Assembly: GCA_033439255.1 (NCBI GenBank)
Contig: CM065879.1
Coordinates: forward strand, 538,501 to 602,500
Reading direction: 5' to 3'
Source of the DNA: Hericium rajendrae
Lineage: Eukaryota; Basidiomycota; Agaricomycetes; Russulales; Hericiaceae
DNA length: 64,000 bases
The translations under genes and the position numbers were made by a program. Positions within the stretch are counted from its first letter, which is position 1. Each line of letters opens with the position of its first letter. The notes under the pieces were generated by a model. The model had not been told where the DNA came from. It worked only from the letters and a program-made list of their open reading frames with translations, and made no database searches. Of the stretch, positions 27,920-61,878 are shown piece after piece.

Positions 27920-27960
27920 GGTTGGACTGGTGAAGTTGCTTTCACGTCCATCGCCACGTA

Positions 27961-27966
27961 TTTATA
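27961..27966 (-). promoter_or_regulatory. TATA box of DUF5648 copy 3
   Basis: TATAAA on the minus strand, 42 bp upstream of the start codon, within TATAAATACGTGGCGATGG. The same sequence is kept upstream of the copy at 41386. Confidence 0.65.
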
Positions 27967-28996: not shown

Positions 28997-29067
28997 GCAT
29001 TAATGGGGTAGTGGTAACCTGGGTCGTTGCCATCGACCCGCCGGGGGTTCGATTCCCTCTTAATGCA
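28997..29067 (+). tRNA. tRNA-Gly (GCC), copy 3
   Basis: Identical to copy 2 except for one C-to-T change that turns a T-stem pair into G:T. The cloverleaf is kept. Anticodon loop TTGCCAT gives GCC. A run of 17 T begins 24 bp downstream. Confidence 0.93.
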
Positions 29068-40402: not shown

Positions 40403-41385
40403 ATGGGACTTGACTCCGTTGTCCAGGTTTACATCGGCAGATGCCGCTTAGCTCCTCGACGCGCCGTCGAATCAATTTGATCGTTTCTCGCCTCGCCTGC
40501 TCGCTGGCCACTTGTCACTGCCAGCGAAGCAAGGTGTGCGCGAATGTAAGAATGTTAGTCAATTGGGTTGTACTATACACGATTGCACTGAATTTGGCCT
40601 TCAGCTCGACCCAAGCTCGACCTGCCACTGTACAGTAACGGCCTCTGATGCCGTCCACAACGTCGTTCATAGTGCTCCTGCAGGGCTCAGGAATGCTCAG
40701 CGCCGTACTTCAGATTTGGCAGTCCACAGGCACCAGGACGACATGACTATGTCTGGACCAGGGGGATCTGGTCACTGTAAGTCCGTTCAATTCGATCGCC
40801 AACCGTCTATTCAGCCATCCCTGTAGAACTACCCCACGCAACTGTCCGTTTACAAATGATTCCTGCGCGGAACTGCGCGACATGCTGGGAGCTATTTTGT
40901 CGCGGGCGACGTAGAGACATCCCTCGCAACTGTCTATCTACAGGTGATTCTTGCGCGGAAGTCCTCGACACGGTATCGGGCTAGGTATTTCTCAGCATCG
41001 CGACGTGTTTCTGCGTATACGCATCGTTCCAAGCCATCTGGCTTCTGCAACATGTTTAGCAGTGGCGGGCTTCTGTGCAGCATATGCGGATGACTTCTGA
41101 TGCTTCACAGGTAGTGCAGGCATCGTTTCGTTCCCAGCTGCCGCTTTCTGGCTTCTCCAGTATGTTGGACAGCGGTGGGCTTCTGTGCAATCTACATGTC
41201 TGACTTCCATATGCTTCAAAGCTAACGTAGACCTCGCATCGTTGGCCGTCCATTTGTTGCAGATTTCTCGATTGCATTCATCACTACCAACAACAAGGAT
41301 CTTGCTTCGTATCACGTTCACCGCACGTCAGTCCTTCATATAAATACGTGGCGATGGACGTGAAAGTAACTCCACCAGTCCAACC

Positions 41386-41700
41386 ATGAAGTCGATAATC
41401 GGTCTCATGGCAGCGTTTCTCCTCTTCTATGTCTACGTCTACGTAAATGCCCAGGCTGCAGGCAACAACGAAGTATTCAAGGTCAGCATTCCATCACACT
41501 CCACACACGAGTCTCTGTCTCAAAGACTCTCCATAGGCACCGGAAGCTGCCAAATGCGCGGATCGCAAGAAAGCCGCTCCCCTGCTGAGGGCCCTCAACC
41601 CGGCGTCGGCGACCACTTCTACACGACCAATGCCACTGAGATGGACATTTCCACCAGAACCCTTGGGGTTTGTTCTATCAGACGAGGCTGACCCGGTCCC
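41386..41700 (+). pseudogene. Shortened copy of DUF5648 gene 3
   Basis: Exon 1 is kept (MKSIIGLMAAFLLFYVYVYV), as are the intron position and the first repeat (CDS text for DHFYTTNATEMD is present). About 400 bp holding repeats 2 and 3 are missing relative to the gene at 27310-27919, so sequence passes from the end of repeat 1 straight into the former 3' flank. The promoter with TATAAATACGTGG is intact. A short secreted peptide could still be made, but I regard it as a pseudogene. Confidence 0.75.
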
Positions 41701-42743
41701 AGTGCAGGTTTCACTTGGTTATGCGGCCTTCAATCGGTTAGTATGTCGAACAATATGGAAGCACGAAGGACGTGCGGATACGCTGCTTTACTTTATATGG
41801 TCTCATTCAGCTTTTCCAGTCTTCGATATGCCATAGCACTTTTGGACTTGAACCGTTGTGGCAACTCCAGTCATTTTAGGTCCATTTGCGCCTGACTCTG
41901 GTCAAGCTTTGAGATGCTACTACGAAGAACTGTTCATCAATTCCGCAAGGTCAACAAGTTTGCCCTCGAATAGCCAATCCGAGTCTACCTCGAGCGCCCC
42001 GCGCGGAACTACAACGGCAGGAAGACCGGGAGAGTTTAAGATGTTTACCATTGTGTCCAGTAGTCTTGCATAACGAGATGCGAGCATGTGGAACTGTATG
42101 CCTTGACGTCTGTCCATCGTGACATAGATGCATGGGCTTTTCGTCTGTTTTTCATCTGGGGTTTTTCGTTGCCGTAGGTGGCTAGCCTTTTCAATCAGAC
42201 TTGAACGTCACTGACTTGGATAGCCTGTCGATTATGATTTTGTAGGACTTATTCTATCGAGCGTTTCGTCTGTTCTCTATGTTTTTGCTTTACCTCTCCT
42301 TTGTCATAAACATCGGGCAAACCCATACCTGGAATGAAGCGAACTATCCCGGCGCATACCTCATACTGATGGTTCACATCTCATGGTGGACCAGGCATAG
42401 GCATGAGCTGGACGTTGGCGATCCGAATGTCGTGAGTAAGTACGAGTCTTCTTTGTGTCATATTTTGACCGTTATGACAGCTTAGTTCCATATTGCTTGT
42501 CGCCTCAGTAGCTCTTTTCAACCTACGCCAATGCCCATTTGAATTGTACTGCCGCTGTCACGCCTTCAATGGCATGCTCATACCTCGTTTGTCCAGGCTA
42601 CGAGTGAGCCATTCTCCTTCTGGATGCAGAATGGCATTTGGCTGGCTCTCATGAGGTATCTGCGCAGGTCATGGCAAGGTACACACCCGGTGGAATCGGA
42701 CACTAATTACGAAGAACTGTCTCCCACACTGGGTTCGTCGAGG

Positions 42744-42749
42744 TATAAA
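42744..42749 (+). promoter_or_regulatory. TATA box of the disrupted DUF5648 gene
   Basis: TATAAA in the block GAGGTATAAAAGCTGCG, copied from the promoter at 26207. It is 53 bp above the ATG at 42802 and now drives transcription towards the LTR element. Confidence 0.6.
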
Positions 42750-42801
42750 AGCTGCGATATGGAGGCTCAACATCGGCAGTTCTCAAGACTCTAGCAGAAG
42801 C

Positions 42802-42854
42802 ATGAAGTTCCTCGTCACTCTTACCGCTGCGATCTTCTCCCTCAGCCAGAGTGC
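42802..42854 (+). pseudogene. DUF5648 copy 4, 5' piece, interrupted by the LTR element
   Basis: Encodes MKFLVTLTAAIFSLSQSA, the signal peptide of the copy-2 paralogue, up to the insertion point. The remainder of exon 1, the intron and exon 2 lie at 61008-61588, beyond the 18.15 kb element. Confidence 0.85.
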
Positions 42855-43874
42855 TGATGCACCCTTTAGCGCGCCTTGCAACGGCATTGCCCACTCCCCG
42901 CTTCCTTGCCCGTCCCGCTTCACTTCACCTCAGCCGCACCAAGTCCGCCCACCGCGACGTTGCTCCCCACACAGGACAAGCGCCCCCACGGGTTCGGGAC
43001 CGACCGGGTCGGACTAAAGCCGGTGTCCCGTGGTCCGATGCACCGAACGGGCTGGAGATCAACCGGCCGGACGAGTCAGCGGCACAGGAACAGAAGCGCG
43101 CCCAGAGAACCAGCTGGCTCAATCAACGCGCCCTCGAATGCCCACACGCCCCCGGATCACGAGCGGCGCCCGCGACAGTGCGCTACTGACGCCATCCCAG
43201 CCATTCCAGCTCGACGTGCCCGCCGTTCCCGACGCACGCCCGGGCGACGTTGTAAGGTGGCACCTTTGATTCGTTCGTACCACGCGCACGCCCTCTGCCC
43301 TGCACGGGCTGAGCCGCAACAACTCCACTCGCCAAGGGACCCGAAGCAGGCAGGATCAGGAAGGAATTGGAGATTGGGTCGGTCAGCGGGAGGTTGTCGT
43401 AGAAAGTCGCGCCAGGCCGCCAGAGGCGGCCTTGCCCATTTGTACTGTAGCTACTGACTTGGAGAATCAGAACGGAATCTGTCTTTTTCCCCTCAGAGCT
43501 CAGATCTCACAAAGCCTGCCATTTGACGTTCTCACCGCCAGTTTCTAAGCACGTCTCAGACGTAGCCTTTCTCACTTACTCGTTTTGTTCCTCGTATTCA
43601 TCGTACTCATCGCCGCGCCATTATCTACAAGCCGTATCACCTAAGACCCATGAGTCTTGTCGTACCGTCATCGTCCCTAGCAGAACCGCGTCGGAAGTCG
43701 CCCGCACGCAGCAAGCTTGCCCTCCGCGGTCTTGCTCCCCTGCCCGTAGTACGGTCACCCGTCAGCTACACTTCCCGGCGCTCCCCTCTTGAGACACTTG
43801 GTCCCCTTGCACCCCCCGGTACTCTGTTGGTTTTGGTTTTGGCTGCCGCCTCCATTCCCAGGGTCCACACATCA
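42855..43874 (+). repeat. 5' LTR, 1020 bp
   Basis: Begins TGATGCACCC and ends CCACACATCA. It aligns to the 3' LTR over its full length without gaps. All 26 differing bases fall at 25 CpG, TpG or CpA positions. Confidence 0.95.
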
Positions 43875-44735
43875 TTTTGGAGCCCACCGCGAGGGTTCCA
43901 TACTCAAAATAGAGCCGCGTCATACTAGGAGTAGCGCACGGTCGAATCCAGATTGTACCCTCAAACAAGAAGTCCGTGTTGCGACTCAGGACCCTCAGCA
44001 AGTTTCCCCCGACCTACAGTCACCTTTCCCACCGGTTCCAACTCCCACTAGTCCCCTTACTCCCATTGACGAAGAGTTCGAAATTCCCGAGCTCGAGCGC
44101 TCCTTCATCGTTCCTACTCCACCCGTATCGCCAACCCCGGCGCTGCGACCCCTTGCCGGCCCCTCTGCTACCGCGGGTCCTAGGACAACGCCGCACCAGG
44201 CGACTTTGCCTGCTACCCCCCGTCCCCCTTCTGCTACTCAACAACACAGCCCGCTAGCCCCTGCACGTTTCCCCTTCCCCAGGCCACCAAGTATCCAACC
44301 AGTCATGCCGCCCCCCTCCATGCCTATGCGCGGCGAGAGCGGTGCTCCTAAGTTCGACACCAACTCCCCCCGCTGTCACGGATCGCTCCATTTCTCTCCG
44401 CCTTCTTCTCTGCCATCAAGGCATCGCGTCGGTCATGTGCTCCAGCAGCCCCATCACATGTTCACTTCCTCACATGACCTGGGGCTATCCTTCACCCATG
44501 CCCTTGTTCCCCTTTGGGACATCCTATTGTTCTCCCTCCCATTGTTCTCCTTTTGGCCACCATTGTTCTCACTCTATTGTTCGACCCGTTATGGTGTCCA
44601 TTGTTCTTTTCCCATTGTCGTCCCAGTACTTATAGGCTCCCTGTCGCTCGCCTATTTCCCTAGATTGTCCATTTCGTCTGTACCGTACTGTACCTCCAAT
44701 ACAGGTCACTGCGCTGCTAGTCGCTCTCTGCTCTC

Positions 44736-47240
44736 TTGCTCCCATCATCGCTGGTGACTTGGGTGGTTCTCTGCTGTCTACGACCGAGTCTTGACACCCG
44801 TGAGCTGGGCTGTTACTTCCTCGATCTCGAATTTTGTTTTCAGCATTCCTCCGTGGCAGATGACGTGGAGAAAAAGAGTCATGCGGTCCATCTCCTCTCA
44901 GACGTTGACGCACAAGAGCTGTGGCGGTCCGAGGCCAAGTACGCCGCCAGCACTTGGGACGAATTCAAGAAAGCTATCCACGAACTCTACCCGGGCTCGG
45001 CTAAGGAGAATACCTTTTTGCATCAAGATTTGGAGTCACTCATGCACCGAACCGCCGAGTCCACCCTCAGTTCCGTCGGCGAACTTGGTGCGTTCTCGTG
45101 CGAGTTCACGGTCATCATGCACTACCTGAAAGGCAAGAACTGCATCTCCGATATCAAGGAACAACGCTGGTTTTTGGCGGCGCTCCCCGAACGTCTTCGC
45201 CTGTGGGTAGAGGACCGCCTTGCTCTTACCAAGCCTGATCACCATCCCGACGATCTGCACCCGATCAACGACGTCTATAGGGCCGCAGAGTGGTGCATGT
45301 ATGGCACTGCCATCACCCCCGACCCGTACCTGCGTGGACCGTCTTCAACTCAAGCCACCGCATCGTCATCAACCGCTGATGCAGGCTCAGGAACGACTAT
45401 CCAGATTAAGAGTGAGCAGTTAGCATCACTGGCCAATATCCTCTTGAGGAGCGCGCAGCAGCCATCGCATCAACCGATGGTCTCCGGAGGTAATCAAGGC
45501 GCGCCAATGCGCGGGCAAATGGGGTCAGATCAGTGCAACTTCTGTGGGAACGTGGGGCATTTCGTGCGCGAATGCATGACAGCCCGGGAATACATGGCCG
45601 CCGGCAAGTGCAAGAAGGACATCCAAGGCAAGATGGTCTTACCCTCTGGGGCTTGGCTCCCGCAAGGACCCCCAGGCACGACTATGGCCGAACGGATCGA
45701 CGAATACCACCGTATGAACCCCAATCAGCGAGCTACGGGTCAGCTTATGATGGGTGTAGCCGGTACCCACCAGGCAAGTTCGCCGCAGGCGGGGCTCACT
45801 CCCTACGGCTATCGCGTCGTGCCGGCATACGCTCAGACCACCGCGTCCCCCTATACCCAGGTCCAGGCAGGGTTGTACCAGCTCACCACAGACGTGCGGA
45901 TCAAGAGCCTGGAGGGCGAGCTACGGTGGTTATACCAGTTGAAGGACGCCTCGGTTGTGCCCCCACCCAATGCCGTGGCCAGCCGTGATAGGGCTAACCG
46001 GGCATTGGAACGAGCTCGCAGGATGGAAGAGCCTGCCCGCCAACCAGCCCCTCCACGATTGCCCCGTGTGCCGCCGCACCTGACCATCGAGGACAAACCA
46101 GAGCCGCCACGGGCGTCCCTGCCCCCTCCACAAGCTTCACCGGCCCCAGGCCCGGAGCGAGACGTCCCCCCCCACCTTCTGTCTCAACCTGCAGTACGTG
46201 ACAACCTCCGCGACCCCGATGGTCCCATCCACCCGTTTGCCAGAGCCCGCGACGGTGCAAGGCCCGTGCAAGTCCCAGTGATCGAAGTAGTCGAAGAGAC
46301 GGGCCCAACCCGCCGTGCACAAGACTCAGTCGGGCAAGACGTGCTGGACCGCATGTTCGCGCACGCCATGTCCCTCCCTATCGAGGTCACCCAGGGCGAG
46401 CTCTGGTCCCTGGCGCCTGCACTACATGCGAAATACAAGGAGGCAGTCTCACAGCGTCACACGCGTCCGGTGGTGGGACAGAACCTGTTGGAAGTCCTTA
46501 CCGAGACTGACCTGCTCTCCGAGCTGCCAGGCGAAGATGCAGTCGAGGAGCTGGCCTCGCCGGCGCGTCAAGTAGAGCTCGCTGCAGGTATCCAGTTCGC
46601 GAGCGAGCCCGCCGAAGGTGACCGTGTGCAGCACCCAGCCTCGCCCCCTCATCCACGGGTGTCTATCCTTTCGCACCAGTGCGCCGAGCCGCCGGAAGGT
46701 GCTGTCGTCCTCCCGGATCCCTACGAGCAGTACCTCAAGCAACTCCGCCCGGACGAAAAGCCTAAACCCCTGATCGTCTCGCGCGAGTCTGCGGCGCTGC
46801 GCTCTATTGCAGCACTCATAGATCATCAAGAACCGGTCGAGTGCATCTTGGACCCAGGTTCTCAGGTCATCTCCATGTCAGAGAGCGTTTGCTACACCTT
46901 AGGCCTGTCGTATGACCCCACGATTATCCTCACTATGCAATCCGCCAACGGCGAACTTGATGACTCGCTGGGCCTGTGCCGAAATGTGCCTGCAGTCTTC
47001 GGCAACATTGTTCTCTACCTCCAAATACACGTCCTCCGGTCGCCCGCCTACGATATCCTACTCGGACGCCCCTTTGATGTGCTTACTGAGTCCGTCGTGC
47101 ACAGCTACTGCAATGAAACACAGACCATCACCATCTTCGACCCAAACACCGGTGAAGCAGCCACGATCCCCACCCACCCGCGCACTGACATTCAGTATAC
47201 GCTCGCGGCAAAGGAGGATTTTCACACTTCGATGATTTGA
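44736..47240 (+). CDS. LTR element gag and protease region
   Basis: This is a long open frame in the Ty3-type element. It contains a capsid-like helical region, a CCHC zinc knuckle of the form C-x2-C-x4-H-x4-C (CNFCGNVGHFVREC, near 45535), a Pro-rich stretch and a retropepsin-like segment (ILDPGSQVISMS, near 46850). The pol frame overlaps its end in another frame, an arrangement this family commonly reads through by frameshifting. It is treated here as part of a retroelement fossil. Confidence 0.88.
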   Translation: MLPSSLVTWVVLCCLRPSLDTRELGCYFLDLEFCFQHSSVADDVEKKSHAVHLLSDVDAQELWRSEAKYAASTWDEFKKAIHELYPGSAKENTFLHQDLESLMHRTAESTLSSVGELGAFSCEFTVIMHYLKGKNCISDIKEQRWFLAALPERLRLWVEDRLALTKPDHHPDDLHPINDVYRAAEWCMYGTAITPDPYLRGPSSTQATASSSTADAGSGTTIQIKSEQLASLANILLRSAQQPSHQPMVSGGNQGAPMRGQMGSDQCNFCGNVGHFVRECMTAREYMAAGKCKKDIQGKMVLPSGAWLPQGPPGTTMAERIDEYHRMNPNQRATGQLMMGVAGTHQASSPQAGLTPYGYRVVPAYAQTTASPYTQVQAGLYQLTTDVRIKSLEGELRWLYQLKDASVVPPPNAVASRDRANRALERARRMEEPARQPAPPRLPRVPPHLTIEDKPEPPRASLPPPQASPAPGPERDVPPHLLSQPAVRDNLRDPDGPIHPFARARDGARPVQVPVIEVVEETGPTRRAQDSVGQDVLDRMFAHAMSLPIEVTQGELWSLAPALHAKYKEAVSQRHTRPVVGQNLLEVLTETDLLSELPGEDAVEELASPARQVELAAGIQFASEPAEGDRVQHPASPPHPRVSILSHQCAEPPEGAVVLPDPYEQYLKQLRPDEKPKPLIVSRESAALRSIAALIDHQEPVECILDPGSQVISMSESVCYTLGLSYDPTIILTMQSANGELDDSLGLCRNVPAVFGNIVLYLQIHVLRSPAYDILLGRPFDVLTESVVHSYCNETQTITIFDPNTGEAATIPTHPRTDIQYTLAAKEDFHTSMI

Positions 47241-50200
47241 TCGAAGATCAAGGAGAGGTCGCCTTCATCGTTGATTTCGACTCGGAGACGCCGCAAATCA
47301 TGGCTTATGCCGCTATACCCCCAGAATGTTCCGAAAACCCAGAAAAATGCCAAGATCATCTTCAATCTCTTTATCTCTATGCCTGTGATGCCTCGCTTCT
47401 CGACTCTAGTCCGGGGGCTCCTTCGCTTTCGGATGCCCCCGATAAATCTAATTTGTTGTCTGCCTTTCTCTCCGCTACAGCCTGCAAGTCCGCTTCTGCT
47501 TCCAAGCAAGGTCGCCCGAGTCTGCCGCCTCCTGGCGCAATGGATACTGGTCCTCCTGTCGCCTCTTATGCCGCAAAGAAATACAAGCCAGTTGCCCAAA
47601 AAGTCTGCCCAGTATTTACAGACCTCCCCGAGCGTTTTCGGGTTCTCCGTAACATCAAAGGCGACCCTCTCCAAGACCTGCTGGAGTTATCTCCCAACCC
47701 GCCCCCGTTCGCTCCCACCGCCCGCTATACCGAAGAAAGAAAAGCGGTTATCGATCGTGCCCATCCAGAAGGTTTCCTCTGGCCCGCCGAGCATGACCTA
47801 CTCCACCATTTCATGTGTCTCCACGATACCGCCTTCGCCTGGGACGATTCAGAGCGAGGACATTTCCGCGAAGACTTCTTCCCCTCAGTGGTTATGCCGG
47901 TGATACCGCACACCCCCTGGGTCTTGAAGAACCATCCAATCCTGCCAGGCATCCATGACAAGGTCTGCGAGATTATCCGTACCAAGATCGCCGCCGGCGT
48001 ATATAAGCCTTCGTCGTCGTCATATCGCTCACGCTGGTTCTGCGTCACCAAAAAGGATGGTACAAGCCTGCGCATTGTGCACAGTCTCGAACCGCTCAAC
48101 AAGGTCACCATCGCTCACTCGGGTGTCCCGCCTTTTACCGACCAGCTCGCCAAGCAGTTCACCGGGCGTGCTTGTGGCGGCATCCTCGATCTCTATGTTG
48201 GTTACAATGAGCGACTCTTGGCGGAGGAGTCCCGCGACATGACCACGTTCCAAACCCTGTTCGGGCCCAAACGGCTCGTTACGCTGCCCATGGGGTGGAC
48301 GAACTCCGTGCCTATCTTCCACGACGACGTTACCGAAATCCTCCAGCCAGAAATCCCAGCTGTCACCATGCCCTATATCGATGATGTCCCCATTAAAGGC
48401 CCAGCTACCCGTTACGAGTTGCCTGGCAAAAATTTTGAAACTATACCCTGGAACCCAGGTATTCGTCGCTTTGTCTGGGAACACTTCCAGGGCGCAAACC
48501 GTGTCGTCCAACGCATGAAATATTGCGGTGGTACCTTCTCAGGGAAAAAGACTGTCCTTTGCGTGCCAGAGATCATCGTCGTCGGTCATAGATGCACGCC
48601 AGCAGGCCGTTTGCCAGAACTCAGCAACCTCGCCAAGGTCAGCAACTGGCAACCTTGTACCGACCTCTCGGACGTTCGCGCTTTTCTCGGGACCATTGGC
48701 GTGGCCTGCATCTTCATCAAGAACTTTGCAAAATGTGCTCATCATCTGGTACGGCTTACGCGCAAGGACACCCCATTCGAGTTCGGCCCAGACCAGTTGG
48801 CTGCGCAGGAAGACCTTAAGCAAGCACTACTCGCATCACCCGCCCTGCGCGCAATAGATTACGAGTCTCCCGCCTCAGTGATCCTGGGCGTCGACACCTC
48901 CTATATTGCCATCGGTTACCTACTCTGTCAACAAGATGTGGACGACCCCAAAGTTCGCCAGTATGCCCGCTTCAGCTCTATCGCCCTGAACGACCGTGAG
49001 GCGCGCTTCTCCCAACCAAAGCTGGAATTATATGGCCTATACCAGAGCCTTCGCGCACTCAAACTCTGGCTCATTGGCGTTCGCAACCTGATTATCGAAG
49101 TCGACGCCCGTTATATATCCGGCATGCTGAATAATCCCGATCTCGCCCCTAGTGCGTCCATGAACCGGTGGATCGTCGGCATCCTCATGTTTCAATTTAC
49201 CCTGGTTCACGTCCCTGGCGAGAAGCATGGGCCGGATGGCCTCTCCCGGCACCACCCCCAGGACGATGATGCGCCCGAACCCGACGATGACTTCGACGAC
49301 TGGGTCGACCGTGCTTATGGCTTTGTACACATGATAAATGTGCCTCGGATCGGCCACGACCGCCCTCAGCTGGCCCAACAGCTCATCTTGACCAATGTCG
49401 CCGCCGGCGATTTTGTCGCGCCTCCTCCGCAAGACCACTTGGCGTCCTACGCAGATGTTCCAAGGTCCAAAAAATCCCTCCTCACAGATGCCCGACTGCA
49501 CGCCGTCACCGACTTCCTGCTCCATCCGATCCACCCTGACGGATTGACGGACCGGGAGTACGCTCGCTTCCTGCGTTATTGCCGCGACTTCTTCATGAAA
49601 GGTGGCCGCCTCTGGAAGCGCGACAAGACAAATGCGCACAAACTAGTGCTCCCGCCGACCGGCCGCTGGGCTGCTCTCGTTGAGACTCACGAGTCCGCGG
49701 GACACCGTGGCATCGCCGCAACCGCCCTCCTGCTCGCGGTCCGTTTCTGGTGGCCTTTTATGGGCTCGGATGTCACTTGGTTCGTCCATTCGTGCCATAT
49801 TTGCCAGGCGTTCCAAATCCGCAAAGTTCTTATCCCGCCGATGGTTGCAGTGCCCGCGCCTTTATTTGCGAAGATGTACATGGATACCATGCACCTGCCG
49901 AAATCCAACAATATGCAATACCTGGTCCAAGGGCGCTGCTCTGTGTCCCACTTTCCCGAATGGTGCATGCTGCGCAAAGAATGCAGCGAGCACATTGCTG
50001 ATTGGATTTACCAAGACATCTTGTGCTGCTGGGGTATGCTCACCGAAATCGTGTCCGACAACGGCGGCCCGTTCGTTAAAGCCTTGACACAGCTGGAAAA
50101 GAAGTACCACGTCCGGCATATCCGCATCTTGGGCTATAACTCGAGAGCCAACGGCATCGCTGAGCGTGCACACTTTGACGTACGCCAAGCCCTGATCAAG

Positions 50201-50449
50201 GCCACCGACAGCGTGGAGAAGAATTGGAGCTACTCAGCCCACTCCGTGTTCTGGTTGGAACGTATCACCATCTGCCGGTGCATGGGCTGTTCCCCATACT
50301 TCGCGGTAACCGGTACGCACCCCCTGATGCCGCTCGATATCGCTGAAGCCACCTACCTGCTACCGCCGCCCGAGGCGATCTTGTCCTCTACCGACCTGAT
50401 CGCCTCCCGTGCTCTTGCCCTGCAGAAGCATCAAAAGGACCTTCAGTGA
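47237..50449 (+). CDS. LTR element pol region (RT, RNase H, integrase)
   Basis: This long open frame holds reverse transcriptase (with the YIDD box near 48385), RNase H (from about 48880), the integrase zinc-binding HHCC region (HESAGHRG with CHICQ, 49690-49810) and the integrase core (near 49870-50180). RT before integrase is the Ty3/gypsy order. The region past 50449 continues integrase-like sequence up to the first nested insertion. Confidence 0.9.
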   Translation: MIEDQGEVAFIVDFDSETPQIMAYAAIPPECSENPEKCQDHLQSLYLYACDASLLDSSPGAPSLSDAPDKSNLLSAFLSATACKSASASKQGRPSLPPPGAMDTGPPVASYAAKKYKPVAQKVCPVFTDLPERFRVLRNIKGDPLQDLLELSPNPPPFAPTARYTEERKAVIDRAHPEGFLWPAEHDLLHHFMCLHDTAFAWDDSERGHFREDFFPSVVMPVIPHTPWVLKNHPILPGIHDKVCEIIRTKIAAGVYKPSSSSYRSRWFCVTKKDGTSLRIVHSLEPLNKVTIAHSGVPPFTDQLAKQFTGRACGGILDLYVGYNERLLAEESRDMTTFQTLFGPKRLVTLPMGWTNSVPIFHDDVTEILQPEIPAVTMPYIDDVPIKGPATRYELPGKNFETIPWNPGIRRFVWEHFQGANRVVQRMKYCGGTFSGKKTVLCVPEIIVVGHRCTPAGRLPELSNLAKVSNWQPCTDLSDVRAFLGTIGVACIFIKNFAKCAHHLVRLTRKDTPFEFGPDQLAAQEDLKQALLASPALRAIDYESPASVILGVDTSYIAIGYLLCQQDVDDPKVRQYARFSSIALNDREARFSQPKLELYGLYQSLRALKLWLIGVRNLIIEVDARYISGMLNNPDLAPSASMNRWIVGILMFQFTLVHVPGEKHGPDGLSRHHPQDDDAPEPDDDFDDWVDRAYGFVHMINVPRIGHDRPQLAQQLILTNVAAGDFVAPPPQDHLASYADVPRSKKSLLTDARLHAVTDFLLHPIHPDGLTDREYARFLRYCRDFFMKGGRLWKRDKTNAHKLVLPPTGRWAALVETHESAGHRGIAATALLLAVRFWWPFMGSDVTWFVHSCHICQAFQIRKVLIPPMVAVPAPLFAKMYMDTMHLPKSNNMQYLVQGRCSVSHFPEWCMLRKECSEHIADWIYQDILCCWGMLTEIVSDNGGPFVKALTQLEKKYHVRHIRILGYNSRANGIAERAHFDVRQALIKATDSVEKNWSYSAHSVFWLERITICRCMGCSPYFAVTGTHPLMPLDIAEATYLLPPPEAILSSTDLIASRALALQKHQKDLQ

Positions 50450-51976
50450 CTTCACAGCCGCGTCTATGAGGCCCGCCTCCAGGCAGCACGAAAATTTGAA
50501 CTGGAACATGAACACACGATCCACGACTTTGACTTTCGCCGCGGCGAACTGGTACTTGTCCGCAATTCTGCGTACAGCACCAGCCATTCCCGGAAGACCA
50601 AACTGCACTACCTAGGCCCGTACCTCGTCCTCGGCTGCAACAAGGAGCGTGCTTACCTCTTGTGTGAGCTCGACGGTATGTTATTCGACCATCCCACCGC
50701 AGCCTACCGCGTTGTCCCGTATTTCGCCCGTACCATCCTCGATCACCCGCCATTGGAAGATTTCCTCGATGTCGGCATCGAGCAGTTTGAACGCTTACTT
50801 GCCTCCACCGTCACAGACCCGGATGACGAAACCGCCGCATCTGAGAAAACTGAATTTTATATAGCTGCAGGTTATATTATAGGTGCTATCATTGAGCTAT
50901 ATAAGCTATGTAGCTTGCCTATCTAGCTATGTAGAGCTATGAGAGCTTCCATAGCTTCCATAGCTAGTAGTGTCAGTTATATAATGCTACCATAGCTTCC
51001 ATAGTCAGCAGTTGGAGATATATAGCACTATCACACTTGCTAAGGTAAGCTATGACTGCTATCAGTACTATTAACACTATGTCAAGTCAAATAGGTACCA
51101 AAGTACCAAATGTTCAAAGTCAAAATTGATTATATTCAACATAACTACTACTACAGACAAGTACACTATAATAACAAATACCGCAGGCACACGCGCACTG
51201 GCAGGGTACACACACGCACGAGGCGCGGCGTGACGCGGCAGTCGTGCGCGAGGCACGGCCGGCCCGTGCGAGAGGCGCGTGGGCGGAGAACGAGGGGCGA
51301 CGAGGCATCGGGCGGGTAGAGGCACCGCGAAGCACTCGGGACAGCCGGGCGCGCGCGCGTATGAGGCACGGGATCAGGCGCGAGGTATCAAACGTGTCGC
51401 GAGGTGAAGGCCTGCGGCGGGCTCATGCGCAAGGCGCGAAGGCGGGCATGCGGGGTATGACACGACGTCGCAGGAGGCCCGCAGGGCGTGCACGAAGCGT
51501 CTGGAGCGGGCACTGTGCACGAGGCACGGGAGACATACGGACGCGGCGCGTGCGTGACGCGGAAGGCCCGCATGCCGGCAAGACGCGGGGACATGCATGA
51601 GGCATGGAGACGCACGCGAGACACGGAGGGGCACGTACGTGAGTCGTTGTGCTGCCGCGGGCCCGTGCACGACGCGGCAAGCCTGCGCACGCGGGAGAGC
51701 GGCGCAGGGCACGAGATGCGGGGCAGGGGGGGCGCGGCGTGACTAGGTGTTGAACGTGTACGTCTCGGGGCATGGGGTGTAAGGCGGGGGACGTTGCGTG
51801 CGCGCGCGGGCGTTGTGCGCTTGTCCGGGGTACTGCGGGCGCGTATCCGAGGCGAGAGGGCGTTGCGCAAGTGCGGCGAGCCCGCAGGACGTGGATCTTG
51901 GGTGCTGCAGCCGTTCGACACGTCAGTGACACGGCGAGGGTGTTGAGGCGTGGCGAGAGCCAAGGGATGATGTCCC

Positions 51977-52004
51977 GAGTCTCGTTGCCACGGCAACGAG
52001 ACTC
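51977..52004. repeat. Hairpin A1, 28 bp
   Basis: Arms GAGTCTCGTTGCC and its complement around a 2-base loop. The inner 12 bp of each arm are identical in hairpin B2 (55878-55905) of the other insertion. Confidence 0.9.
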
Positions 52005-52342
52005 TAGGCGCGCGATGAGCGTTGGAAACGGCGCGCGATGGGCGGTGTAAACAGCGCGCGGCGGGCGGTGACGTGGCGAGTGCGTGCGCCACAGACTGTG
52101 CGGAACGGCGTTGGTGCGTCGTCCGTGGTCGTGCCTGCGTTGCCCGCGGCCGTGCGCGCAAGTAGGGGGGGTCGGGGTGCGGTTGACGTAGTGGTTCGGG
52201 CGCGGGATGTTGAGGTTGCGCGCGCGGGAAGCAGAGGGCGATGGCGGCGTCGTTGGGAGCGCGGAGGGGGGGAGTTGAAGGCGACGGGGGCAATGGGGAC
52301 ATGGGACAGGAGATGGGAGGAGTGGGGGTGTCAAAAGAATGA

Positions 52343-52366
52343 GTGTCGCTCGAAGACGAGCGACAC
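52343..52366. repeat. Hairpin A2, 24 bp
   Basis: Arms GTGTCGCTCG and complement around AAGA. It corresponds to hairpin B1 at 55733-55765, whose arms contain GAGTATCGCTCG. Confidence 0.9.
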
Positions 52367-52811
52367 CCTGCGTAAATACGAATGAACACGAAAGAATAAC
52401 TTTTTTACTTACCTGCAGCCCCTCAGCTTACTAAATCCCAGCCCGATCCGTCTTGACTGTCGATAGAAGGAGGAGTGAAGCGAGGCGAGCGAGCGGAGCC
52501 GGAGAGGGACAGACAGAGTGAGGGAGGAGATGAAGACTGAGCAAGTGCGAAGTCTCGACGCGCGTTCGGTGCTTCAGCCACCGAACGAGCGAAGCTACGT
52601 TGTTCGACCTCCGACAAATCATTTAAAATCGCATAAATCTCACAAAAACGAATACGAGTACAATTACTACATTGTATCGAAATAAATGAGGACATTGTGC
52701 ATCTACTGTATTGTACATGTCCGGGTAACAAAGTCAACTTAGTCAACTCTGCGGGCCCAGTCCCTGACGCGTCGCTCGGCAGCCACGATTCCCGGCTTCG
52801 CCCGGGATTCG

Positions 52812-53230
52812 TATATAAGGCTTGCGCGACGCGCGTTGCCTCTTGCTCCTAAACCCCCACCATCTCTCTTGCCACGTCGTCCTCGACGTCGTCACTCTCT
52901 CACTCGACGTCGTCACTCTCTCACTCGATGTCGTCCCTGCCTCTCTCGTCGTCGCTGCTGTCTTTCGTCGTCGCTGCTGTCTCTCGTCGTCGCTGCCTGC
53001 TTTCGGTAATTATTCTTAGTCTCTTATGTTTAATGCTGATGCTTTTATACTTGTTCTACAGCACTTTTGTATGCTTATCAGGTAAGCTATGTTATGTCTT
53101 TACATTCATGCAGGGTTTAGCTTTCTTGTTAGTTTGGTAAGTCTTATGTTATCTTTATCATCTTGTAATACTAATGTCTTTTCTTTATATTTTCGCTTTT
53201 TATAGTTGTTGTAAATTGGTATCTTTTATA
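52812..53230 (+). promoter_or_regulatory. TATA core and intron-like series in insertion A
   Basis: GTATATAAGGC followed by TTGCGCGACGCGCGT leads into CT-rich DNA with 23-bp and 19-bp tandem repeats. Intron-like units follow: GTAATT...TTCTACAG, GTAAGC...CATGCAG and GTAAGT...TTTATAG, the last with a CTAAT branch-like site. The same TATA core and GTAAGTCTTA donor occur reversed in insertion B. No coding frame runs through it. Confidence 0.45.
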
Positions 53231-53699
53231 TTTATGTAGTGGTCTTTGTAGTGTTAGTTATATTTTGTAATAAAATTATATAAAAAATATAATGATTTTT
53301 AATCTTTAATATTTGTGATTAAAATGTATAAAGTTATTGAGCTAATAATTTGGTTTAACATCCTAGAATCACATATTTGATAGAAGTGATATAGAGTGGA
53401 TAGAAATCTTACTGACTAGATATATTATAACAATAGTGATATAGTATATAGTTAATATAGCTTCTATAGCTATTTTATACTATGATAGTTATGACAGCTA
53501 TGATATCTTATACTCTATGCTATAGTAGCTATGTAGCTTAGACTCTATGCTATGATAGCTATGGTAAGCTATGATAGCTATGCATAGATTACTTGACAGC
53601 TATGAGACTGCTATGTAGAAAAGAGGACAGCTATGGACCTAGGAAAGCTATATAGCCTACATAGCCTTATATACCAATGGTAAATTTCTCAGATGCGGC

Positions 53700-54462
53700 A
53701 GCGACCTCAGCGAATTCGACAGGTCCTGACCAAGTTCGCCCGCGGCGTCCTCTGCCCACTCGACTAGCGAGGAGGACTGAGGGCAGTCCATTTTTCAGTT
53801 AGGGGGAGTAGAGGCCGTCAGTCAAGCATGTCAACGACCTTGGACGCCCCACCAATACCCACACGCATGAAATAAATCTATTGTTACTTGCATTTCGACA
53901 AACTCGCCTTGGGCGATCTTCATACCATCCACCACTCAGATTTTACCTTCACCAATCGTATAGGCCCTGACAAGATCGCCTGGGGCGACTTTGTTTCTTT
54001 CTGGTTTTCCCTTTTAGATTCACACAGGTTCAGACTTCAAGATGGGCTCCCATTTGGCAGGAGCAACGATACAGTAGGACTCGGCGTCCCGATTACGAGC
54101 AACCTATAGTAAAAAGCCGGGCCTAAGGCCCGGGCAACACAAAATGTATGCGACAACTTCCACAACGACAAAACAAGATAGCAAATTTGAAAGGGGAGGG
54201 TCTTTCCCTCCCCGCGCAAAGCGACAGCCCCGCTCGTCAGGAGTCAGCCGGCACGACTTCCTCTGACACGGTCACCTCAGCGACAGGAGCCGCCGTCGGC
54301 TCCAACGGCTCACCAGGACCTTCGACCAAAGGAACGGGGGACTCCCTTGCAAGCGGGCACGAAGACGGACCCACGGTGGGACTCGCCACGGCCTCCTCCT
54401 CTGCGTCGCTAGCAGCGTCCGCAGGCTCATCCTTGGCGACCTTGCCCTCTTCATCCACCTCC
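53700..54462. other. LTR element segment between the two nested insertions
   Basis: Belongs to the Ty3-type element. It holds a second copy of the polypurine-tract motif (TTTTCAGTTAGGGGGAG, 53793-53809) and, further right, antisense-oriented acidic coding sequence (54237-54458). Confidence 0.6.
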
Positions 54463-55732
54463 GCCCATCAGGAAAATGTAGAGGTACTATATAGTCCTAT
54501 CAGAGTTATATAGAGTTCCTAGGGCCATAGCATTGCCCTTTACTCCATAGCCTATATAGCTAAGGAGAGATGCTATATAGTGCTATAGAGCTTAAGAGGG
54601 ATACTATGAAGTGCTATCATAGCTATCATAGCTAACTATGCAGCTATCATAAGACATGTAGCTATAGAAGCTATGAATGTTATGTCACTGATATAAGCTA
54701 TGTCCATAAGATAGACTTGACATATCTATATAAGCTATGTTCATAAGATAGACTTGACAGATCTATAAAAGCAATGAAAGCTATTCATATTATCTTATCT
54801 ATAATTAGACCACAAACAAATTTTCACACAAGTTTCAAATCAACAAAAAATCGAAATTTTAAAAGACATTATGATTCATCAGATAGATTAATACATGAAA
54901 GAGTATTACATTATACTAAAAAATTAACAAGCTTATATATATTTACAAGTGTTAAGTCAAACTATATCAAATAAAAATAAAAATAAACACAAGACTTATC
55001 TCAAAGACAATAAAAAGCGAAAATGAAACCTTAAAGTCAACAACTGATTGTAAGTAAACATAGAAAGAAAGAGCACAGTAAGTAAGACTTACCAAAGAGG
55101 GAAAAAAAGCGAAAATATTAAGTCTACAAAGATAATACATAAGCAAAAGTATAAGTTAGCAATACAACAACATAGGAACTTACTAAACAAAGAAAGTTAT
55201 AGAGAGAGAGGGAAGAGAACGACAAAAGACGGGAGATGGTAGTGGTAGGGAAGAGAGAGAGGACGCGCGTCGCGCACGCCTTATATATGTGAGCGCATCG
55301 GAGCCCGAATTGTGGCTGGCCGGCGGTTGCCGGATGCCGCGGCAGAGGCTACTAAGTTAGATTTCAGTAAGTTAGGTTCATTGCTGAAGGACATACAGTA
55401 TAGTAGATACTTATCTAGCTCATTTATCTTGTATAACTAATGAATTTATGTGTGTTCCGTTTTTCTCGTATTTTAAAAGATTTTATTTGATTTGTTGGAC
55501 TCGAAACTGCCAGCCGCGCGAGTCCTACACTCGACGCGCGACTTCGTGCGTTTCTTCGTCCAGTCCATTCTCACTCCACCCAACCTCCACCTCTCCCTCC
55601 CTTCTCTCCCTCCCTTCTCTCTCTCCATGCGCGAAGTACGACGTCCGTCGACGGTTAGGAGGGTTCGCAGGGCATTCGGGGGGCTCAGGTAAGTAATAAT
55701 ACGTTTTTTTTTGTCTTTTCGTGCTAATCAAA

Positions 55733-55765
55733 CGAGTATCGCTCGTTGCTAACGAGCGATACTCG
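55733..55765. repeat. Hairpin B1, 33 bp
   Basis: Arms CGAGTATCGCTCGTT and complement around GCT, a perfect 15-bp stem. It follows a GTAAGT splice-donor-like site at 55689, as A2 does on the opposite strand. Confidence 0.9.
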
Positions 55766-55877
55766 TGTGTCGTCTCGCGGACCCCCACTCGCCTTCAACA
55801 ACCCGTGCCCACACCCATGAGTCCGCCTTCCGCCTCATCCCACTCTCCTCGACAACGCCGTCGTCGACGCTGTCGTC

Positions 55878-55905
55878 GAGTCTCGTTGCTACAGCAACGA
55901 GACTC
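55878..55905. repeat. Hairpin B2, 28 bp
   Basis: Arms GAGTCTCGTTGC and complement around TACA. The arms equal those of hairpin A1 while the loops differ. Confidence 0.9.
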
Positions 55906-55989
55906 GGCCAAACGTCGTACGACATGCATCCCCTTCGCGCCCTCCACCACACCACCACACCCGTGCCCCACCCGGCTCCACGCCCACGC

Positions 55990-56800
55990 CTACGTCTCCG
56001 TACGCAGTCCGGTGTGCGACCCCGCCTACGCGCGCCCGGTTGCATGCGCCTGGCCCTGCTTGCACGAGCGGGGCCATGCACACTGGCGACTGCATGCGCA
56101 CGGCCGCGGACGACCACGTAAGCGTGCGCGCGTGCACGCATGCTCGGCATGGGCAGCTGCGCACGATCCTGCCGGTGCGCGGGCGGCCAACGCACGGCCC
56201 CTCCTGTGCATGCGGAGTCGCGCCCAGCGGTGACTGCGTGCCCCCGGCCGCGGACGACCGCACGGCGCACGGTGCGGACAGTCACGCACGGCCGCGTCTG
56301 CGTGTGCAAGGCCACACACACCAGCGACGGCACATGCACGGCCGCAGACGACTGCCAGGGCGTGCTGGTCCGCGCACGCCGGTGACGGCGCCATACGGCC
56401 GTGGACGACCACGACGGCACGGACACGCTGCGCGGGCAGCTGTGAATGGTCCCGCCAGCCCGCGCATACACGTTCAGGCAGCCACGGACGGCCCCGCCTG
56501 CGCGCGGGTAGCCATTCACAGCCAGGCACGGTGGCGGCTGGGTGTGCACGGCCGCGCACAACCCCAGCCGCGGGGCTTTGTTGCATCGCGCACGGCCTCC
56601 CTTTTCGCGAGTGATGCCGCCATGTCGCGCATGGCCTTCGCGCATGGCTCACGCACCTCGCGGTGTAACCCGTCGACCTGTGCGTACCGCCGCCGACCCG
56701 CGCATGGCCCCGTTATCTCAACATGTCGCGCGCGGGCGCACGGCCCTCGCATACCGTGCGTGTGTACAGCCGCCGCGCCCCGCGCATGGCTGTGCCGTGT
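55990..56800. repeat. GC-rich degenerate array in insertion B
   Basis: Units around CACGGCCGCGGACGACCACG recur near 56095, 56245, 56335 and 56395 with uneven spacing. The sequence alternates purine and pyrimidine over long runs. Open frames on all strands are by-products of the repeat. Confidence 0.55.
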
Positions 56801-57174
56801 CGTGCACATGTAGCTTCTACTACTGTATTTACTTGTGTGTTGTAGCTACAATGTCCCTTAGTAGGAATCATTGAATATATAATTTTTCTCATGCTTTCAA
56901 GTGTGCAATATGAGACTTGACTGGATGGTTATGGAGTCTAGTGCACTTAGTGTAGGAGCCATAGGGACCATAGTATGCCAACAAGTTTATATAGCAATCA
57001 TAGCTGCCCCTCAGGAGTATATAGCACTATATAGCATCTACCTACTGCTATGAAAGCTATGATAGGCCTTATAGCTCTACATAGTTGAGAAGGATAGTTA
57101 CATAGACCTTATAGCACTCTAATAGGACACATAACTTAACACTGGACTATGTAGAATTCCAATTTCCCTGATGC

Positions 57175-59987
57175 CGCGATATACTCGCCGCGCATGCCCA
57201 TATAGAGGGCCATGACGAGCCTCTCGACGGCGAGGATCTGGCCGTGGTTCGACATGCGCTGGAGGTACAAACCGACGAGCTGCCGCTCGGTCTCTGCGAG
57301 CAGGGTGCGGCGGAGCGACGAATCGCACGGAATGCACGTGTAGGGGTCGACGTAGTCCCAGGCCCCTGGACGGAAGCCGTTGGAGACCGGGAATGGAAGG
57401 CGAGATGCGAGCGCCTCGAACGGGGCTGTAGGACGGTCACCCGGTCAGCAAACGCGTAGCAACAGCGGGGTAGCGACTTACGGAGCACGCCCGCGGGGTC
57501 TGGTATCCCCAGCAAGACCACGGGGGAGTCGACCACCTGGTCGCGACCAGAAGAAGCTGCAGCAGCGCGCGCAGCAACAGGATCCACAACGGGCGCACCC
57601 ATCCACGTCAGATGTGCGTTGAGGTCGACGCAGGCGAGGCAGGAAGTGCACTTCTCGCTGCACTCGCAGCATCGCTCGTGCTTCGCGCACCCGACGTTCT
57701 TCGCAGGAAGGACCCGGCGGAGGCACTCCTTGCCCTCGTTGATGCACGCGGTGCACCACTGCTCGGGCAAGCACTATGCAAACAGAAAATTAGCGTCGAG
57801 CACAGGTGGAGGGGATGGGTACTTACTGGGCCCCACTTCTCATCGGGCTCCTTGGCCTTGGCCTTCCCTTTCCCCTCGTTCGCAGCGACGGTGCCAGCTG
57901 GCCCCGTACGCGCCCTCTTCGCCGGCGGGGGCACCTCGACAATCTCGTCCCCCGCCTCCTCCTCCTCGACAGGTGCTACGGCCTTGCGCTTGGCCGCGCG
58001 AGTCGCGGCGGACACTGGAGCATCCAGAGCCGGGTCATGTCCCGCTCGGCGGATGCGTCTACGACACCGGTGGCGGTCAACAGGGCGGTGACTTCGAGGC
58101 GGTCTTGCTCACCGGTCTGCGAGTGGGGCGGCGACGGAGCCCTGGTGCGCATGGAAGACGAGGCCTGCGGGGTCTCGTTGGTTGGCGCGGCTGCCTTTTT
58201 ACCCTTAGGGGGCCCTGTCTTGCGCGTTGAAACAGGCACGACCTGCGCGGGCCCCTTGCCCTTGGGTGTCGCGGCCACGAGCAGGGTGTCATCATCGCTC
58301 TCCTCGAGCTCGTCAGTCTCCCAGTCCTCTGTCTCGGTCGGGTCTTCGGGCGGCTCGAAGACGTCGAGCACCTTGGCACCTCACTTGCGGTCGGACTTCA
58401 GCTCGAGGCGGCTGAAGACTATACGGGCGTCAGCGATCCCGCGACGGAAGAAATCGTTGTCGAGGTGGGCCGAATTCGACCTCAAGAGCGGGCCCTGTCA
58501 GGAGTAGTGGTCAGCGGGGACGGAAGCAAAACGTGCGCCGGCGGACTCACCAAGCAAGTGGCAACCTGGGTGATCCACTCTGCCCAGACATTGCCAGGGT
58601 CGCCTTCGCGCGGGTGGCCTGACCCAAAGAGGCATTCGAGAGCCTGAATACCCTTGGGGCGGTTGTCGACGTACGCACGAGCCATGAGAGACGAGGTGCT
58701 GAGGAGCGAGTCGCCTCGCGACTCAGTGTTCATAAGGACTCCGCGACAAGACGGAAGCGCCTGGCGAATTGCCTCCGGAGAAGTCCCCACGTACAGGTAG
58801 CTTTGCAGCTTCGCGCAGAAGCCCGCGACATGGGCACCCAGCCAAAACAGTTGTCGCTTCGGACTCAATCAGGATCTCAGGCCCCGATTGGTGCCCATTT
58901 GTCATTTCAGCCGCGTCTCGTGAACAGGAAGCCTATTCGGCGACGGGCAGGTCACACGGACAGCATAGTGTGCTTTTGCACCAGAATAGTTCAATTGAGT
59001 GGCAAGGCATACTCGCCATCGGCGTACATCGTACTATACTAATCCGCAGCCCCTCCCGCGACCCTGTCGCGGGCTCCCTCCTCGTCTGCTCGGTAGGGCG
59101 GAAGCCGCAGCAGCTCGGCCAGGTCGAGTGCCTCCGCCACTAGGCGGTGCATCGTCTCTAGCTCATGCGGATCCTCGCTCACCTCTCCCCCGGTGTCTTC
59201 CCATGGCAACTCCGGCGCAGAGACCGCTTGATGCAGCCTGGCGAACAACGGCTCCAGAGCCCGCTTGCAGGCCTCCGCGTCTATGACGTCATACTGGTAC
59301 TTGCGGCAGGTGATATCGATTTCCTCCAGGGCCACCGCGCGGCGCGTCTCCCACAGCTCGGACTCGGCCACAGACAGGCGGTCCGTGGCATCTACCTGAT
59401 TGTGCTCCAGGGAATCGAGCCACTCGCGCTTCAGCGACGGCATGAGGTACCAACCCCAGTCGAGCCAACGGCGGACTTTCCCGGACGCGCAGGCGGCCTC
59501 GGACAGGAAGTGGTCCGACATCTGCGTGATGTCATCCTGCAGACCCACGTTGATGGCGCCAGCGTAGCGCTGGTAGTCCTTCTGGAGTCCCGAGATTAGC
59601 AGGTATGCAACAACGCCGCAAGCGAGCTTGGACGTACTACGGCAACCATGAGGTCTCGACCCCAGATCTCGTGTTCCCGGATGACCGCGTCGCACTTGGA
59701 CAGCGTGGACACATCGAGCGGGGCCCACGAGTGCTCCGCAAGGAGCCAGGTCACTTTCTGGCAGAAGACTTGATCAAGGAAGGTGTTCATCGGGACAAGA
59801 CTGCCGGGCGTGAAGAGGGCTCGGAGTTGAGTGCCCTCCCGGGGCGTAGATGCCTTTTATAGGCTCACTGCAGCACACCCGCCCAGGGCGCCGTCGCACA
59901 ATCAGCTTCATGCATGCCCGTGCCCGAATCCCTCATGGGGCTCCAGATTAGACTACAGAGAGTCTAAATTTTCAGTTAGGGGGAGAA
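57175..59987 (-). mobile_element. Antisense coding region of the LTR element
   Basis: Between the second insertion and the 3' LTR, long frames lie on the minus strand (within 57147-57770, 57976-58371, 58482-58868 and 59039-59790), opposite to gag-pol. They include a cysteine-rich, possibly zinc-binding stretch (57640-57770), an acidic stretch (58270-58370) and a helical stretch (59100-59600). I do not recognise a family. Some fungal Ty3-type elements carry an extra reverse-oriented gene here. It is treated as a fossil part of the element. Confidence 0.55.
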
Positions 59988-61007
59988 TGATGCGCCCTTT
60001 AGCGCGCCTTGCAACGGCATTGCCCACTCCCCACTTCCTTGCCCGTCCTGCTTCACTTCACCTCAGCCGCACCAAGTCCGCCCACCGCGACGTTGCTCCC
60101 TGCACAGGACAAGCGCCCCCACGGGTTTGGGACCGACCGGGTCGGACTAAAGCCGGTGTCCCGTGGTCCGATGCACCGAACGGGCCGGAGATCAACCGGC
60201 CGGACGAGTCAGCGGCACAGGAACAGAAGCGTGCCCAGAGAACCAGCTGGCTCAATCAACGCGCCCTCGAACGCCCACACGCCCCCGGATCACGAGCGGC
60301 GCCCGCGACAGTGCGCTACTGACGCCATCCCAGCCATTCCAGCTCGACGTGCCCGCCGTTCCCGACGCACGCCCGGGCGACGTTGTAAGGTGGCACCTTT
60401 GATTCGTTCGTACCACGCGCATGCCCTCTGCCCTGCACGGGCTGAGCCGCAACAACTCCACTCGCCAAGGGACCCGAAGCAGGCAGGATCAGGAAGGAAT
60501 TGGAGATTGGGTCGGTCAGCGGGAGGTTGTCGTAGAAAGTCGCGCCGGGCCGCCAGAGGCGGCCTTGCCCATTTGTACTGTAGCTACTGACTTGGAGAAT
60601 CAGAACGGAATCTGTCTTTTTCCCCTCAGAGCTCAGATCTCACAAAGCCTGCCATTTGACGTTCTCACCACCAGTTTCTAAGCACGTCTCAGACGTAGCC
60701 TTTCTCACTTACTCATTTCGTTCCTCGTATTCGTCGTACTCATCGCCGTGCCGTTATCTACAAGCTGTATCACCTAAGACCCGTGAGTCTTGTCGTACCG
60801 TCATCGTCCCTAGCAGAACCGCGTCGGAAGTCACCCGCATGCAGCAAGCTCGCCCTCCGCGGTCTTGCTCCCCTGCCCGTAGTACGGTCACCTGTCAGCT
60901 ACACTTCCTGGCGCTCCCCTCTTGAGACACTTGGTCCCCTCGCACCCCCCGGTACTCTGTTGGTTTTGGTTTTGGCTGCCGCCTCCATTCCCAGGGTCCA
61001 CACATCA
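59988..61007 (+). repeat. 3' LTR, 1020 bp
   Basis: Begins TGATGCGCCC directly after the purine tract and ends CCACACATCA. It has the same length as the 5' LTR. Confidence 0.95.
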
Positions 61008-61588
61008 GCGCGGCTTCGCCCATTCCTGCTCATGGTATCCTCGAGGTCTGCCTCAATTGCTAGGAATTGTTTCTGTTTCAATAAAATTGACCATGACCTG
61101 ATTCGCAGACACGAGCGGCTGATATATGCCACCTCAACGAAGCCATCGCCTTCTTGAGAGTCTATTCCGACTCTGCACGCAACTATTTCTACACCGACAA
61201 TGTTGCGGAGATGGAGGGTGTCATCGCCCACGCCGGCTATCACTCCGAGGGCATCACAGGCCTGGTATTCCCCGGCCAAGTCAAATTCAGCACACCCCTC
61301 TATCGCCTGTACAACGCTTGTGCGGTCGACGACTTGTACACGACCTCATTGTCCGAGCGCGACAAAGCCACCGCACGGGACGGCTATGTCTTCGAAGAGG
61401 TTGCGGCATACATCTACTCATCACCAATCTGCGGCAGCGTCCCGCTGCTGAGGGGCTATAGTGCATCTATCATGGATCATTTCTACACCACGTCGGTGGC
61501 CGAAATGGAGAACGCCATCATCAAGTATGGCTATGCCTTTGAGGGCATCACAGGATATGTGCTCCCTGCAAAAATGCGATCGAGGTGA
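61008..61588 (+). pseudogene. DUF5648 copy 4, 3' piece, beyond the LTR element
   Basis: Holds the end of exon 1, an intron and exon 2 of the copy-2 paralogue. The three repeats are recognisable (ARNYFYTDNVAEMEG, VDDLYTTSLSERDKA and MDHFYTTSVAEMENAI), ending GITGYVLPA followed by a short extension. The repeats diverge from copy 2 by many amino-acid changes. With its signal peptide cut off by the retroelement it is unlikely to work. Confidence 0.82.
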
Positions 61589-61878
61589 GACTGTATTCGA
61601 TTTCATTGTCCACACAATGATATTGACAACCTGTGTGCAGTTTTATCATAATGATAATGCAAGAGAATCCGGGGATTGTGCCGGATTGAAGTGGTCCGAA
61701 GTCAGACTCTAGTCGAGAATTTACTTGTACTTGTTCATATAGCCTCCTCATGACCCTTGGGAATGTTTTGAAATGTTCTTCTGGTCAAACAATTTCTAGA
61801 TCCTGGTCAATCATCTGCTTCAAACAGGTGAATTGGAACTTCAACGGAGACCGAGAGAACACAAGTCATTTCCCATGG
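61008..61878 (+). repeat. Right part of the permuted copy
   Basis: Matches 26106 down to about 25265, inverted. It ends near the position where the left part begins in source coordinates (about 25270). Confidence 0.7.

Follow-up and report, generated by a model that had tools for sequence, protein, structure and literature searches.

Two CpG habits, in target choice and in later decay, proposed for a retrotransposon family of Hericium rajendrae

Why should the two ends of a retrotransposon, and the short host sequences that border it, differ from each other only at CpG? The question is raised by a long terminal repeat (LTR) retrotransposon found in a 64,000-nucleotide stretch of the genome of Hericium rajendrae (assembly GCA_033439255.1, contig CM065879.1, positions 538,501 to 602,500), which is called the window here. 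The answer that we favor, at a probability of about 0.8, is that the family has two separate CpG habits. It would integrate at targets of the form V-CG-B, and its inserted copies would then lose CpG through decay driven by methylation.

All of the differences between the two window LTRs lie in CpG sites. Pairwise alignment of the 5' LTR (42855-43874, plus strand, TGATG...CATCA) with the 3' LTR (59988-61007, plus strand) shows that both are 1020 bp long, with zero gaps and 25 base differences in 24 CpG sites. There are no transversions, indels, or non-CpG changes. The CpG has been lost at 10 sites in the 5' LTR and 13 in the 3' LTR, and at one site (42968-42969 and 60101-60102) CA is aligned with TG. 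Of the 214 bases in CpG sites 25 differ, and the 806 other aligned positions have no difference (Fisher p = 3e-18). A preliminary description of this DNA had counted 26 bases at 25 sites, divided about 11 to 14 between the LTRs. Each of these figures is about one off, but the account was right in kind: changes are confined to CpG, a single site has CA against TG, and the loss is shared by both LTRs. It had also argued that the LTR divergence of 2.5% overstates the age of the element, and since there is no divergence outside CpG, the overstatement is several-fold. LTR dating without CpG masking misjudges the age of this element. The CpG observed/expected ratios of the two LTRs are 1.03 and 1.01, hence they are not CpG-poor. 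No literature on LTR dating with CpG bias was found in a search that left subscription journals mostly outside.

Other copies of the family show the same pattern. The genome examined is 46.77 Mb in 19 contigs, with the window at C2:538501-602500. The 5' LTR used as a query gave 41 matching places from the candidates scored; one was a 99-base piece, and the other 40 were used. Fourteen LTR pairs were assembled from these 40 loci, and they have 104 CpG changes, 7 other transitions, and 2 transversions, with 0-4 indels per pair. The CpG changes per pair are 25, 2, 5, 1, 4, 0, 3, 5, 12, 10, 11, 5, 4, and 17. The 13 pairs besides that of the window have 79 CpG changes and 9 others, at least two of which adjoin an alignment gap. 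A CpG site has changed 40 times as often as another site when all 14 pairs are counted, and 30 times as often when the window pair is left out. The 5' and 3' LTRs share the losses 49:50, and the products divide 50:49 into CA and TG. The pair with 0 changes, L015/L009, has mismatched flanks and may not represent one insertion. The 14 pairs can serve as natural clocks within a single genome, for which the ratio of CpG to non-CpG rates has been measured.

This pattern is best read as slow deamination of methylated CpG, with methylation judged from the mutations themselves. The preliminary description had proposed this reading, which gains support from the 13 further pairs and from DNMT1-RFD-like and DNMT5-like genes in the host. 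A process like repeat-induced point mutation (RIP), in which repeats are hypermutated at CpG during the sexual cycle, could also act here. The mutated DNA is repeated, and TCG-centered CpG hypermutation, likewise a CpG change in transposons, has been reported in Pucciniomycotina repeats (PMC12730594). However, the H. rajendrae element shows no preference for TCG. The losses by context are ACG 34/751, CCG 25/941, GCG 27/943, and TCG 13/527 (chi-square p=0.09). They are also graded, from 0 to 25 changes per pair and at most 24 of 107 CpG sites, so that RIP with a TCG context, seen as dense and context-biased C-to-T change, is absent from the 14 pairs. A RIP-like origin is therefore unlikely, though a very weak process lacking context bias may act. 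CpG-only decay bears on the Agaricomycotina, in which hypermutation was not detected according to the same report.

A sequencing artefact, in which long reads miscall methylated CpGs, would also confine changes to CpG. However, a uniform miscall would not leave some copies with about 115 CpGs differing at 0 to 2 of them and the window pair at 25. Derived CpG states also argue against it, as 82 are common to at least two separate elements, while 4 are found in both LTRs of one element and 65 in a single LTR. The 82 common states are most simply inherited through transposition, though recurrence could also give rise to them. On these grounds an artefact is rejected as very improbable.

CpG decay extends into the body of the element and is not confined to the LTRs. 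Compared with eleven sister copies, the window copy has lost more CpGs in every listed stretch of at least 300 bases. Over a 6-kb stretch, 138 CpGs have been lost in the window copy and 8 in the sister copy L065. The same stretch has 32 non-CpG transitions and 11 transversions, which are read as subfamily divergence. All pairings of the 40 LTRs give 12,960 CpG transitions, 4,937 other transitions, and 2,485 transversions. Subfamilies differ from each other by much ordinary change, and restriction to CpG characterizes the period after insertion. Nor is CpG-only change general. Among gene paralogues in the window that flank the element, CpG transitions are 127 of 529 substitutions (24%; six of eight aligned stretches, >100 bases). 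These paralogues, at 65-93% identity, are far older than the LTR pairs and serve as a control of unequal age.

Maintenance methyltransferase genes are present in the host, as judged from gene pieces. PF00145 has matches at five places in the genome. A DNMT1-like gene on contig C12 has an RFD match, with BAH-like and catalytic motifs read by eye. A DNMT5-like gene on C4 has 7r76 as its best PDB match, which we take to be Cryptococcus DNMT5, and a C1 gene in two pieces is presumably DNMT2-like by motif. There are 46 TET/JBP matches, 38 of them over the cut-off. One PF00145 piece lies in the window itself (15156-15269, minus strand). It is among gene pieces at 13977-18881 (minus strand), some 24 kb from the element, and the usual PCQ motif is apparently missing from it. 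The start of these pieces has no Pfam match, but by motif we take it to be GHKL-ATPase-like; joined, the pieces are possibly an inactive methyltransferase-like gene. In a 2026 review, DNMT1-RFD and DNMT5 make up the toolkit by which Basidiomycota methylate CpG in DNA rich in transposons (PMC13297926). Coprinopsis, Laccaria, and Agaricus, which have CpG-methylated transposons, share DNMT1-RFD-like and DNMT5-like genes and many TET/JBP matches with H. rajendrae (PMC13297926, PMC12730594), whereas here the evidence for methylation is mutational.

The target of the window element also contains a CpG. Its left duplication is GTGC (42851-42854, plus strand) and its right duplication is GCGC (61008-61011, plus strand). 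Their sole difference is a CpG transition, and the left copy is read as a decayed GCGC. The element interrupts one copy of a DUF5648-type gene, and the counterpart of the target in the uninterrupted paralogue is a single GCGC at 26103-26106 (minus strand; coordinates counted from alignment output). Because this unoccupied site holds a single GCGC, the CG belongs to the target DNA and not to the element. The paralogue (25541-26332, minus strand) begins in one frame with a signal-peptide-like sequence and continues in the next with the DUF5648 domain, and the two probably form one gene across an intron. In the interrupted copy, the insertion falls within the part that resembles a signal peptide. 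An inverted duplication surrounds the gene (25465-27977 against 41328-42867 and 61007-61649, 82-96% per ungapped arm), and the element has split one copy. DUF5648 relatives reach no more than 62% identity in the matches listed (120 of 236) and are mostly from Agaricomycete genera. With the relatives of pol and the expansion of TET/JBP genes, they point to an Agaricomycete-like host.

Insertions throughout the family are centered on CpG. The duplication was read at 92 outer ends, of which 42 came from the 40 LTR loci and 50 from 78 further fetched ends, the other 28 being internal. L140, which has a mutated internal end, was left out of the end and insertion counts. Positions 2-3 of the duplication are CG at 79 ends, CA at 7, TG at 5, and GA at 1. 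Three of the 92 ends have T in position 1, and three have A in position 4, compared with 25% at window CGs. Positions 2-3 carry about 1.6 bits of information for CG, and no position outside the 4 bp has more than 0.13 bits. The motif is V-CG-B, and the 4-bp duplication is centered on the CpG.

Counted as insertions, 66 of 75 have CG on a side that was read and 9 have CA or TG only, with none of any other kind. This corresponds to p about 3e-61 against the 8.3% CG dinucleotides of the window. In 28 insertions the duplication was read on either side (manual tally). The 4-mers are identical in 24, differ by a CpG transition only in 3, and are mismatched in 1. The three are the window element, L037/L036, and L199/L092, where the sides differ only as CG to CA or TG. 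Twenty left-end stretches were sought, of which 14 were unreadable and 6 readable (1 internal, 5 outer). Eight right ends with CA or TG only were among those fetched later; their left ends were unread in 6 cases, internal in 1, and in 1 showed ATGC on both sides. Of nine further left ends, 3 gave no reading.

Some LTR ends of the family lie about 4.4 kb apart (for example C2:1758560/1762946 and C3:869903/874265). From the spacing of the ends alone, these copies are perhaps non-autonomous derivatives that share the LTR end. They keep the CG rule where the outer end was read (for example L075, L085, L091, L110).

Sequence-random insertion within CpG-dense or methylated chromatin might produce such a rule as a by-product, and the window is CpG-rich. 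However, the CG is base-exact at positions 2-3, and the information falls away outside the duplication. Flanks with CpG observed/expected ratios as low as 0.55 were still entered at CG. In addition, two further families of this genome do not follow the rule. Ten insertions per family were picked from longer lists for having both ends visible. The 5-bp duplications of a 423-bp LTR family are ctatt, agcat, ctatc, gaagg, cttcc, acgag, attga, ccctg, taatt, and tccgg. CG is present in 2 of the 10 (acgag and tccgg), and also in the CCCGC of the window copy. Relatives of a DNA transposon at 50838 have CG in 0 of 10 two-bp duplications, while the window copy has CG. These insertions rule out a genome-wide habit of insertion at CpG, and the ten relatives rule out the 50838 insert as a second CpG-targeting element. 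The strict CG habit belongs to the family with 1,020-bp LTRs. A by-product of chromatin is very unlikely, though a chromatin tether may act on top of the CG rule.

Several observations weigh against the account given here. The sample is partial, in that 40 of 190 candidate LTR matches were scored, and the pattern for further ends occurred at 172 places, of which the first 100 were used. Across the 40 LTR copies, 84 variable columns are not explained by CpG change, against 148 that are. Two of the 24 insertions with identical sides have CA or TG on both (GCAC and ATGC), and these could be rare non-CG targets rather than products of decay. Finally, the two flanks of L009/L015 (C16:899816-911944) do not match, being CCGG and TGAC. 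The latter is the single GA end, and the insertion, which was counted as CG, is perhaps a recombinant between copies.

From its sequence features the element is classed as a Ty3/gypsy-type LTR retrotransposon (Metaviridae). It has direct LTRs with inverted TG..CA ends, a polypurine tract, and a target duplication, and its domains are in the order protease, reverse transcriptase (RT), RNase H, and integrase. The pol frame (47237-50449, plus strand) encodes RT, RNase H, and an H2C2 integrase; it is 1070 aa long in the window copy and 1234 aa in L065. Ty3 Gag-Pol is the best PDB match over RT-RNase H. Like errantiviruses, the element has a sequence-specific palindromic target. Window frames 3' of pol (57806+, 57147-, 59039-), which bear on the question of an env gene, have no Pfam match, and those of L065 were left unscanned. 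Relatives of pol with 60% identity are present in other fungi, but none was found in viral contigs. A Pfam search of the full L065 pol at E up to 10 found RNase H and H2C2, as well as weak similarity to SH3 and a single further match at chance level. It found neither the chromodomain of chromoviruses nor a methyl-CpG reader.

The Pfam result bears on another possibility, that methylated or oxidised CpG (5-methylcytosine or 5-hydroxymethylcytosine) is recognised by the integrase, or by a protein acting with it, and that targeting follows an epigenetic mark. The host has DNMT1-, DNMT5-, and TET-like genes, the target is strictly CG and not any pyrimidine-purine (YR) step, and 43 insertion flanks have a mean CpG observed/expected ratio of 0.97, compared with 1.09 for the window, so that some targets may lie in decayed methylated DNA. 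However, the full pol has no reader domain by the Pfam search, and change among the paralogues of the gene struck by the window insertion is not limited to CpG. Reading of a mark seems improbable. If it were true, the element would track a silencing mark and add a fresh CpG with each duplication, and targeting and decay would be one loop.

With two separate habits, the preferred reading, the integrase would join the element ends to the target with a 4-bp stagger across V-CG-B, and nearly every insertion would thereby duplicate a CpG. The observed site and duplication suggest a foamy-virus-like intasome that would need a flexible pyrimidine-purine center and accept only CG. The host would presumably CpG-methylate the inserted element, and 5-methylcytosine would slowly deaminate to T on both strands and in both LTRs about equally, at about 40 times the rate of other change per site. 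The copied target CpG would decay by the same route.

Comparison with known integrases is consistent with this mechanism. The top-scoring solved integrase for the integrase part of pol is that of foamy virus, with Ty3 close behind. DQGAAF of foamy virus aligns with DNGGPF in the element, and the residue that we take to be foamy Ala188 corresponds to Gly. V-CG-B resembles the VYRB preference of foamy virus narrowed to CpG (PMC4422553). Prototype foamy virus has the same 4-bp stagger, V first, B last, and a pyrimidine-purine center, but its preference is weak and any YR is used, whereas the element here is centered on CG (PMC4422553). ZAM-subgroup errantiviruses of Drosophila (target CGCG) are also Ty3/gypsy-type and have a 4-bp palindromic GC-rich duplication (PMC5408687); the 4-bp duplication of ZAM has been tabulated (PMC3276498). 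Unlike them, the H. rajendrae element follows V-CG-B, with CG at 66 of 75 insertions and CA or TG at 9, and its host is a fungus with CpG-methylation genes. In the literature examined, sequence-specific integration of LTR retrotransposons is described only for insect errantiviruses and their derivatives. No CpG-targeting retrotransposons were reported among the matches listed, subscription journals being mostly outside the search. A near-absolute CG rule in a V..B frame in a fungus offers a route to the integrase residues that make a weak pyrimidine-purine preference strict.

The remaining parts of the window element are as follows. The region after the 5' LTR (43875-43905, plus strand), where the primer-binding site is expected, starts TTTTGGAGCCCACCGCGAGG and matched no tRNA. 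It contains a short inverted repeat, TGGAGCCC..GGGTTCCA, a candidate fold over the primer-binding site; self-priming by it is hypothetical. The polypurine tract AGGGGGAGAA (59978-59987, plus strand) is directly before the 3' LTR. The gag-protease frame (44736-47240, plus strand) has matches to a zinc knuckle (in the sister copy) and, at the end of this first open reading frame (ORF1), to an aspartyl protease, both under the curated Pfam cut-off.

Three inserts in the window copy are missing from L065 (44374-44796, 50838-53695, and 54466-57172). The first cuts the start of the gag-protease frame at 44374, as shown by alignment to the sister copy, where the unoccupied site is CCCGCGAG. It is a nested solo LTR (plus strand) of another, near-identical LTR family, with a 5-bp duplication CCCGC / CCCGT. 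The other two are nested DNA transposons. That at 50838-53695 has the termini CATCTGAG..CTCAGATG and a 2-bp duplication CG, and that at 54466-57172 has the termini CATCAGG..CCTGATG, which are PlavakaB-like (terminus class from PMC12730594). The family of the solo LTR, the 423-bp LTR family used above as a control, looks like a very recent burst; it has 397 candidate places, and each of the 40 full-length matches that were scored has about 100% identity. The window also contains three tRNA-Gly (GCC) genes, at 10769-10839, 13192-13262, and 28997-29067.

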